A stretch of 64,000 nt of DNA. It comes from Cloacibacillus porcorum (GTDB lineage Bacteria > Synergistota > Synergistia > Synergistales > Synergistaceae). The DNA lies in NCBI RefSeq assembly GCF_001701045.1, contig NZ_CP016757.1, positions 248,001-312,000 on the forward strand. Direction: 5' to 3'. The position numbers and the translations under genes are program-made. The first letter of the stretch is position 1; every line of letters begins with the position of its first letter. Below, piece by piece: positions 17,833 through 58,073 of this stretch. The notes beneath the pieces are model-generated. The model made no database searches and was not told where the DNA came from. It was given only the letters and a program-made list of their open reading frames with translations.

Positions 17833-17917
17833 GCCGGGGTGGTGGAAATGGTAGACACGCACGTTTGAGGGGCGTGTGGGGCAACCCGTACGAGTTCAAT
17901 TCTCGTCTCCGGCACCA
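17833..17917 (+). tRNA. tRNA-Leu (anticodon GAG)
   Basis: 85 nt including an encoded CCA. The acceptor stem GCCGGGG pairs with CTCCGGC (one G-U). The D-arm is GTG/CAC; the anticodon stem CACGT/GCGTG encloses the loop TTGAGGG, giving GAG, which reads CUC/CUU. A long variable arm (about 14 nt), as expected for class II tRNA-Leu, is followed by the T-arm with GTTCAAT. The last ten bases recur in each downstream repeat. Confidence 0.95.
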
Positions 17918-18640
17918 TTCTTAAAGAAACCCTCATGAGGCTAGTCTATTGACTGGCCTCTTTTTTGTTACCCGGCGCAAATACAAAGCGACTCGCACAA
18001 AACGCATGGACGGCGTTTTGGCTCGCTGCTTTTCCGGCACCATTCTTAAAGAAACCCTCATGAGGCAGGTCATTTGACCGGCCTCTTTTTTATTACCTAA
18101 CGCAGATACTGGCCGACTCGCACAAAATCGAAGATTTTGGCTCTCTGGCCATCCGGCACCATTCTTAAAGAAACCCTCATGAGGCTAGTCTATTGACTGG
18201 CCTCTTTTTTGTTACCCGGCGCAAATACAAAGCGACTCGCACAAAACGCATGGACGGCGTTTTGGCTCGCTGCTTTTCCGGCACCATTCTTAAAGAAACC
18301 CTCATGAGGCAGGTCATTTGACCGGCCTCTTTTTTATTACCTAACGCAGATACTGGCCGACTCGCACAAAATCGAAGATTTTGGCTCTCTGGCCATCCGG
18401 CACCATTCTTAAAGAAACCCTCATGAGGCTAGTCAGTTGACTGGCCTCTTTTTTTATTACCCAGCGCAAATACAAAGCGACTCGCACAAAACGCATGGAC
18501 GGCGTTTTGGCTCGCTGCTTTTCCGGCACCATTCTTAAAGAAACCCTCATGAGGCTAGTCTATTGACTGGCCTCTTTTTATTACCTAACGCAGATACTGG
18601 CCGACTTGCACAAAACGCAGAAGCGGCATTTTCTTCCTTC
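17909..18640 (+). repeat. Six-copy tandem repeat array restarting from the tRNA 3' end
   Basis: Copies begin (CCGGCACCATTC) at 17909, 18034, 18153, 18278, 18397 and 18523. Spacings of 125, 119, 125, 119 and 126 bp reflect two alternating types, A and B, giving a 244-bp super-repeat; the last copy is a degenerate A/B hybrid. Each unit holds the tRNA 3' end, a 10-bp terminator hairpin (first one: stem 17937-17946/17951-17960 then T6), and a second imperfect hairpin. Hairpin arms differ between A and B but pairing is mostly kept (AAAACGC/GCGTTTT versus AAAATC/GATTTT). No protein is credible here. Confidence 0.9.
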
Positions 18641-18681
18641 CTTCCACATAAAAATACGCCTCAAATGTTTAGGCCGGGGGC

Positions 18682-48765: not shown

Positions 48766-48830
48766 ACGGCGGCTGCCTGCGCGCGGGGTAAACGTATCAA
48801 GAATGGAGATAGACAAGAAATTACGGTTTA

Positions 48831-49089
48831 TTTAGCTTTTGACTTTGCCCTTAAAGGCGCCCTCTCAGAGGGAGCTGGCTCGGCGATGTTTTTCGCCGAG
48901 ACTGAGGGAGAGTTGCCCTTATGTTCTCCCGCGCCATACAGAGCAACACTCCTTCCGTCAGCCGCCAAAAACAGGCGGCCGACACCTCTGATGTAACTAC
49001 CAGCCGAATCGCACAAATCAGAAGAACTCTGATTTGGCTCCCTGGCCGCCTCAGAGAGGGAGGCTGTAAGGGCAAAGTCAAAAGCTAAA
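48831..49089. repeat. Palindrome-rich dispersed element with 23-bp perfect terminal inverted repeats
   Basis: 259 bp bounded by TTTAGCTTTTGACTTTGCCC (48831 onward, 23 bp in total) and its exact inverse (49067-49089). Inside are the GGCGCCCTCTCAGAGGGAGCT hairpin region, CTCGGCGA/TTCGCCGAG, GCCGCC/GGCGGC and a hairpin (49003-49047) shared with the tRNA-Leu repeat array. No protein coding. It resembles a MITE or REP-type element. A second copy is the target of the IS3 insertion at 53.4-56.5 kb. Confidence 0.8.
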
Positions 49090-49330
49090 CTGTTATTTCT
49101 CTTCCGGCCAGATTTGCCTTCCCTTGGTCTTTCATCGATGCGCTTGCCCTGTTCCTGCGCGGTTGTTGAGGCGGTCGTCGGCCCTGGCCGGACAGAAGGG
49201 CATGATCTCTATTTTTTTCTTGGCTTTGCCTCTATTATTCCATGTAGCTTAAGAGGCCGTGAGCGGCGGAGAGGCGTCTTTACGCTCTGTTCTTATGGGA
49301 CAGACGCCGCTCCGTCCTGCCGCGGCCTTC
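49090..49330. other. Gene-free spacer
   Basis: 241 bp between the dispersed repeat and the end of the MerR gene. It holds an imperfect GGCGTCT/AGACGCC hairpin (about 49268-49304) that may terminate the MerR operon on the minus strand; otherwise nothing recognisable. Confidence 0.5.
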
Positions 49331-57678: not shown

Positions 57679-57746
57679 ACTCCTGCCGTTTGGACAGGAG
57701 TCATTACCGCAGCAGCGAAATTCGGGCGAACTCCATCGCCCTTTTT
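57679..57746 (-). promoter_or_regulatory. Fluoride riboswitch (crcB motif) with terminator
   Basis: Minus strand: GGGCGATGGAGTTCGCCC (57742-57725) is the conserved fluoride-aptamer hairpin, followed by the pseudoknot region and ATGACTCCTG. A terminator stem GACTCCTG/CAGGAGTC (57703-57679) with a T-rich tail follows, so fluoride binding would free transcription of crcB. A TATAAT (57767-57762) lies just upstream. Confidence 0.9.
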
Positions 57747-58073
57747 ATTTTACGTCATTGATTATACACTATGGCTGAGTACGAAACTATTAGGAAGTCT
57801 GCACACCTGGCGCGAAATGTGAAAGGTAAAATTCAAAGTTTCGGAAATTATCGGGGCGGCGGCAGGAGGCACACTGTGTTTTTTAAATTAAGGTACTTGA
57901 ACAGAACATGCTTTCATGCTATCTTTTGCAGAATATCGATTCGGATATACTTAGGCTCTGGCAACATGGAGAGTAAATGTTCCCGAGTCTTTTTATTGTG
58001 TATTTGACTTGAGAAGAGGAGACTTTGCCGATATGACTCCTGGTTATCCGTTTTACGCTGCTGTCGGGCTGAT
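57747..58073. other. Spacer with promoters for crcB and the GGDEF-EAL gene
   Basis: 327 bp without a supported gene. It has TATAAT on the minus strand for crcB and, on the plus strand, TTGAAC (57897-57902), 17-bp spacer, TATCTT (57920-57925) that could serve the downstream GGDEF-EAL gene; the leader would be about 145 nt. Confidence 0.45.

Follow-up and report, generated by a model that had tools for sequence, protein, structure and literature searches.

Cyanobacterial SDRs (very small mobile repeated elements) are reportedly repeats of tens of nucleotides which form hairpins and insert cleanly into other repeats and into RNA-related loci. Rickettsia palindromic elements are small hairpins inside other genes; in proteins, they are inserted in frame. 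Integron attC sites are imperfect single-stranded hairpins with an unpaired centre and a variable end. IS110-type recombination uses a CT core. In E. coli, the tyrT tail repeats (rtT RNA) lie in tandem behind the tRNA gene, and each contains a copy of the tRNA 3' end. RAYTs are predicted in PMC3116915 to move REPINs. PMC7812874 lists 5S expansion segments in Clostridiales, Halanaerobiales, Thermoanaerobacterales, Alteromonadales and Halobacterales; 'Synerg' is absent from that text.

In our reading, T1 and T2, the hairpins described here, belong to a new family of non-autonomous mobile elements of very small size. T1 resembles the SDRs in forming a hairpin and in being tens of nucleotides long, multicopy and cleanly inserted according to empty sites, other repeats and RNA-related loci included; T1 and T2 differ from them in their greater length (53-61 nt), the fixed internal loop with free stems, the conserved 5' tail, the C^T target and the phylum. 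Rickettsia palindromic elements are longer than T1 and T2. Similarities to the REP/REPIN-RAYT system, as presented in PMC3116915 and PMC3733652, include small imperfect, non-autonomous and clustered hairpins; unlike that system, T1 is not tied to a Y1 transposase, and it is a single hairpin flush with the 3' end and preceded by a 5' tail. T1 shares with attC an imperfect hairpin that has an unpaired centre and a variable end; in contrast to attC, it lacks GTTRRRY/RYYYAAC ends (consensus compared by eye) and no cassette genes were seen. T1 and T2 are filed as very small non-autonomous mobile repeats which are SDR-like and REPIN-like, but which did not pass the RAYT and tag tests. A literature search with subscription journals mostly outside its coverage found no description of T1/T2 or of Synergistetes palindromic repeats. 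T1 and T2 would be counted with the smallest mobile DNAs for which exact empty and filled sites exist, and they explain odd hairpins that several Synergistota genomes have in repeats and in rrn operons.

The window (the whole stretch of 64,000 nucleotides analysed) contains a 60 nt T1 on the plus strand at 48989-49048. It scores 73.9 bits (E 3.2e-20) with the covariance model R1 and is among the 24 copies used to build that model. It consists of the tail TGATGTAACTAC, stem1 (CAGCC/GGCCG), GAATCGCAC, stem2 (AAATCAGA/TCTGATTT), GGCTCCCT and stem1'. The first-pass annotation had described a hairpin motif at 49003-49047, and a pattern search finds it there on the plus strand, with GCCGAATCGCACAAA at 49003-49017 and TTTGGCTCCCTGGCC at 49033-49047. 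This motif is the hairpin part of T1; the full unit exceeds it by a 5' tail of about 12-14 nt (TGATGRACAAACTA). In general form, T1 is the tail TGATGRACAAAC, a 5 bp stem1, GAnTC[G/A]CAC, stem2, a loop, stem2', GG[C/T]TCnCT and stem1'. Its length is mostly 54 or 60-61 nt, and the last base pair of the hairpin is flush with the 3' end of the element.

Single halves of the motif, with three mismatches allowed, occur in the window at or near chance frequency: the first half is found 11 times with 9.6 expected (38 of 100 shuffles reach 11) and the second 12 times with 7.2 expected (5 of 100 reach 12). The gapped pattern of inner halves, TCGCACAAAN{3,33}TTTGGCT, has six window matches vs 0.00 in 100 shuffles. 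R1 finds six window copies (48989-49049, 17973-18033, 18098-18152, 18217-18277, 18342-18396 and 18462-18522; E 3e-20 to 9e-18) plus one decayed copy; these scores are partly due to construction, because window copies helped to build the model. R1 was built from the 24 rows of alignment A1, one of which is a mixed sequence, and its E-values are rough. Searched with Rfam at gathering score, the whole window has a sole match away from the hairpin, a fluoride riboswitch (57688-57749, minus strand). At 48780-49110 with E up to 5, Rfam gives one weak match outside the hairpin (SNORA57, 14.9 bits vs a cut-off of 40; 48873-48978, minus strand).

The other window copies are found in an array behind tRNA-Leu (GAG), which ARAGORN places at 17833-17917 on the plus strand. 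The tRNA's own 3' tail, TCCGGCACCA, and the terminator lie at 17908-17972 (plus strand). All T1 copies in the array were found by R1 on the plus strand. A-type copies (stem1 AAAGC/GCTTT) are located at 17973-18032, 18217-18276 and 18462-18521, and B-type copies (stem1 TGGCC/GGCCA) at 18098-18151 and 18342-18395. Further copies of TCCGGCACCA start at 18033, 18152, 18277, 18396 and 18522, and all of them immediately follow a T1. The array unit is TCCGGCACCA, terminator and T1, with the last base of T1 abutting the next TCCGGCACCA without a gap. The array ends in a decayed T1 (18586-18643, 14.2 bits, E 0.055). The motif had been claimed for every B-type repeat; it is intact in two of three, with GCCGACTCGCACAAA at 18112-18126 and 18356-18370 and TTTGGCTCTCTGGCC at 18136-18150 and 18380-18394, while the third is the decayed copy. 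The example cited for it at 18111-18150 does carry the motif, starting at 18112. A-type repeats have the same hairpin and differ from B in the outer stem. The tails in this array have diverged.

A congener (genome G001) has an array arranged alike, though built with stems of its own; the following tail begins at CGGCACCA in two units. In contrast to E. coli tyrT, each tRNA-Leu repeat also holds a dispersed mobile hairpin, which the next tRNA tail follows immediately. The array is not a simple insertion into the tRNA because its left flank is terminator sequence. Instead, the 3' end of T1 may have been joined to C^TCC of the tRNA acceptor arm, after which tail, terminator and element would have been duplicated in tandem; the rival account is a plain tandem duplication with its breakpoint at the same acceptor-arm C^TCC. 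The array suggests a route to tRNA tail duplication.

The pairing of the stems is kept while their sequence varies, as the first-pass annotation had proposed. In statistics that ignore kinship, as do those for the 66 hairpins and the n positions below, 95.6% of cells in the 24 rows of A1 are paired. Stems change on both sides in 70 cells vs 24.6 in shuffles (none of 500 reaches 70) and on one side in two cells; sliding the partners by 1-3 columns reduces pairing to 20-49%. Little support comes from two of the five measures, namely the number of pairs that show a change on both sides (11 vs 8.7, reached by 18 of 500 shuffles) and the number of further pair types (15 vs 17.7). The stem1 pair 14-60 is unpaired in 8 of 24 rows. 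The n positions of the internal loop can pair in 26 of 74 cases vs 12.1 in shuffles, with six copies that contain an extra C left out.

Among 66 distinct hairpins, surveyed with a script which demanded at least three pairs in each stem, stem2 has 26 distinct arms. Its pairs are 397 Watson-Crick vs 5 G.T (5/402), and the loop-edge pair is GC in 47, AT in 17, GT in one and AC in one. Stem1 has 33 mismatches in 330 cells; its variants include TAAGC/GCTTA, CAGCC/GGCCG, TAGCC/GGCCA and AAAGC/GCTTT. T1 stems vary freely in sequence around a constant internal loop, GAnTC[G/A]CAC / GG[C/T]TCnCT. That so few stem2 pairs are G.T is more easily explained by a DNA hairpin or a mutational mechanism than by RNA. 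Paired changes could partly result from template switching inside hairpins, not from selection; switching alone is argued against because the internal loop is kept, and switching would be expected to erase it.

T2 is a sister hairpin of 53 nt (AAGT-TC-3bp-TAC-stem2-T-3bp-TC-ACTT) which has another internal loop and shares its tail with T1; the two types range in length from about 53 to 61 nt. T2 examples are found at L008, L014, L015, L033, L119 and L123-L125. At least five T2 hairpins are counted by a strict pattern which known examples escaped.

The motif is confined neither to the array nor to the dispersed element, and its stem changes are largely compensatory. R1, the structural model built as had been suggested, has matches at E<=0.001 in 36 of the 185 Synergistota genomes scanned; these all belong to families f1 and f6, and the best E is 1e-9 or lower in 22 of them. 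Copies per genome are lower bounds, with 29 candidate stretches scored in each; a relative, genome G043, has at least 32 R1 matches. The gapped pattern has 24 matches in the window's genome (G000, 3.585 Mb) and 27 in G001, and its reverse has none in either. Of the class, 179 genomes were searched with a strict T1 pattern; 9 match it, and none of the 179 matches the reversed control. Matches to a loose pattern over the family appear mostly chance-like by eye outside G000, G001, G042, G043 and genus g5, and were excluded from counts. One strict T1 pattern, used to look for phages, has no match in viral contigs. The tail-alone pattern matches 24 times vs 0 reversed in G043, 12 vs 1 in G000 and 3 vs 0 in G001.

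The window T1 lies within a mosaic dispersed element, read from the sequence at 48831-49089, whose terminal inverted repeats (TTTAGCTTTTGACTTTGCCCTTA ... TAAGGGCAAAGTCAAAAGCTAAA) are exact over 23 nt. This host contains several hairpin modules which differ between copies; other copies are found with or without T1. In the window, T1 interrupts this host at CACCTC^CCTCAGAG. L126, another host copy in the same genome, has no insertion there and shows no differences to the window over 60 bases to the left and 22 to the right. L066 and L012 are likewise empty, with six differences each over those 82 bases. By eye, L013 and L066 carry T1 in reverse orientation at a mirrored GCTC^CCTC-like site of the same host.

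A second host is a 132-nt miniature element (CTGATTATATGC...TAATCAGCGG), exemplified by L218 and L214 in G043 and L207 in G001; its end pattern has 81 matches in G043 (1.6 Mb). On the opposite strand, it is predicted to form a single long hairpin with spaced mismatches. Across G043 and G001, L207, L211, L217, L218 and L220 are empty at all three sites. In G043, L214 is exactly L218 plus a 53 nt T2 at ATACGCC^TCCGCC, and L224 is exactly L216 plus a 60 nt T1 at CACATC^TAATC, with a single possible split. A near pair is found in G001, where L209 has, compared with L217, a 54 nt T1 at CACATC^TAATCA and four other differences. L223, L204 and L221 have T1 at two sites. At site 1, the join shifts by one base between hairpin types.

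In the exact filled and empty pairs, the element is inserted cleanly between two pyrimidines, mostly C^T, and the target is not duplicated. A one-base duplication is readable at some sites (L214 vs L218), not at L224 or the window copy. In 32 insertion contexts, which are partly non-independent since some T1 lie beside T1 or T2 and one resembles a deletion product, the base before the element is C in 23, T in 7, G in 1 and A in 1; the base after it is T in 28 and C in 4. Many different sequences have received T1 in this clean way, at pyrimidine^pyrimidine, chiefly C^T, and with no duplicated target; in principle, an empty site could also reflect a precise loss. Features of a classical MITE (DDE) are lacking: there is no target duplication in the exact pairs, and the ends are a tail and a hairpin foot instead of terminal inverted repeats. 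IS110-type CT-core recombination was rejected as the right junction lacks CT in most copies. A longer parent element was also rejected; shared pieces reach at most 179 nt among the matches listed (20 stretches around copies, f6 and g5 genomes).

T1 is also found in rrn operons. In G000, five operons have a good 5S (94-102 bits), each followed by one or two degenerate 5S copies (L007, L009, L011, L021/L022 and L024) which score 39-48 bits or give no match; these extra copies look like pseudogenes. T1 splits six degenerate copies across the five operons at CCTACTC^TCCCACGG (element strand), a site which we take to be in the loop E region and which is unbroken in the first 5S of operons. One split copy has two tandem T1, giving seven T1 in total in 5S copies, and a further degenerate copy, L024 at 39.1 bits, is free of T1. 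In G001, five 5S are found, and nothing beyond them matches 5S at E<=0.001. Hairpin inserts in 5S genes and pseudogenes are shared with the expansion segments of PMC7812874; unlike those, T1 interrupts only degenerate extra 5S copies.

The first-pass annotation had suggested a shared mobile or RNA-processing module. The mobile part of this suggestion is supported by the exact empty and filled pairs, the nesting described below and the spread over genomes; the RNA-processing part is not supported. If the hairpin were an RNA element, functional in processing or as an intervening sequence and conserved in tRNA-Leu and 5S transcripts, this would agree with the strong covariation, with its location in the tail of the tRNA array in two species and with its presence inside 5S-like copies of rrn operons. 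We consider this very improbable: the hairpin has the same sense as the tRNA in the array but lies antisense in the 5S copies, G.U-type pairs are very few, the Rfam searches described above gave no match on the hairpin, the extra 5S copies are pseudogene-like and G001 has none at the above threshold, and many T1 copies lie in dispersed repeats.

T1 itself serves as a target. T2 is inserted in T1 at the loop site GCGAN^TC[G/A]CAC in G000 (L008, L014, L015) and G001 (L033), and T1 within the T1 loop in G043 (L095). This bears on the possibility that the hairpin is now immobile and only a passenger: a few larger miniature elements would each have received it once and spread by their own transposases, and gene conversion would have shuffled hairpin types between copies. 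Many copies are indeed located in few hosts (the window mosaic element, the 132-nt element with its 81 end-pattern matches in G043, and other hosts in G147 and G010), and the A+B units of the tRNA array are plain duplications; larger miniature elements may have carried many T1 copies. We nevertheless consider such an origin unlikely, as copies of the 132-nt host differ in whether T1 or T2 occupies one site (ATACGCC^TCCGCC), T2 lies inside the T1 loop in two species, and clean pyrimidine junctions recur in unrelated targets (5S, the 132-nt host sites, two mosaic-host sites and T1).

We consider it rather likely that T1 is a very small mobile element of the non-autonomous kind, made up mainly of its hairpin, with free stems and a kept loop, and that a mover acts in trans on its folded single strand. 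Fold predictions place all three insertion sites of the 132-nt host on or next to unpaired bases, and the site within T1 falls in the T1 loop. For 5S, a minimum-energy fold, which is not the accepted structure, puts the site at the edge of an unpaired stretch. Insertion solely at unpaired positions is not general, as the window host site is inside a predicted 8-bp stem. The 5' tail and 3'-flush hairpin, the C^T target, the lack of duplication and the unpaired positions in several hosts (the window host being the exception) suggest single-stranded DNA handled in trans; T1 was probably moved in this form, folded. A trans-supplied enzyme would recognise the folded single strand through the internal loop and tail, and cut out or copy it; the target T would then receive the 3' hairpin end, and the target C the 5' tail end. 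In a search for the enzyme, the fixed internal loop between free stems offers a concrete binding target. A bolder version, which we consider rather unlikely, is a distinct class of mobile DNA in which single-stranded hairpins of 53-61 nt with a free 5' tail insert at C^T, often at unpaired or mismatched positions of folded hairpins (their own loop, 5S), by a new type of enzyme.

No mobiliser was found; among 185 genomes, neither Y1 transposases nor reverse transcriptases track T1. If the hairpins were REP/REPIN-like and moved by a RAYT or another Y1 transposase of the IS200/IS605 type, this would explain the small imperfect hairpins, the arrays, both orientations, the absence of target duplication and the unpaired tail at the hairpin foot. 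We consider this account distinctly improbable. Y1 transposases are found in 13 of the 36 genomes with T1 and in 54 of the 149 without (Fisher p=1.0), and Y1_Tnp, a search which would miss a very divergent Y1 enzyme, has no match in G001 (27 pattern matches) or in T1-rich G043; RAYT/IS200 was therefore rejected as a general mobiliser. The sole Y1 gene of G000 looks like an ordinary IS200, with no TCGCAC...GGCT hairpin in its 3,357-nt locus. By eye, there is no constant GTAG or CGTC tag at the foot of T1, which varies (ACTAAGC, ACCAGCC, ACAAAGC); ACTACCAG copies have GTAG on the other strand only, and other copies have none. Reverse transcriptase was likewise rejected: there is a weak excess (13/36 with T1 vs 32/149 without, Fisher p=0.08) and no match in G043.

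Some hairpins depart from the general form. Two T1 hairpins in G043 (L093, L094) are without the usual tail; their stem1 is preceded by GCATA, and their loop halves lie further apart. Several copies among L158-L168, mostly in f6 genomes, have a short stem2 (~3 bp) closed by a TC-N5-TC loop.
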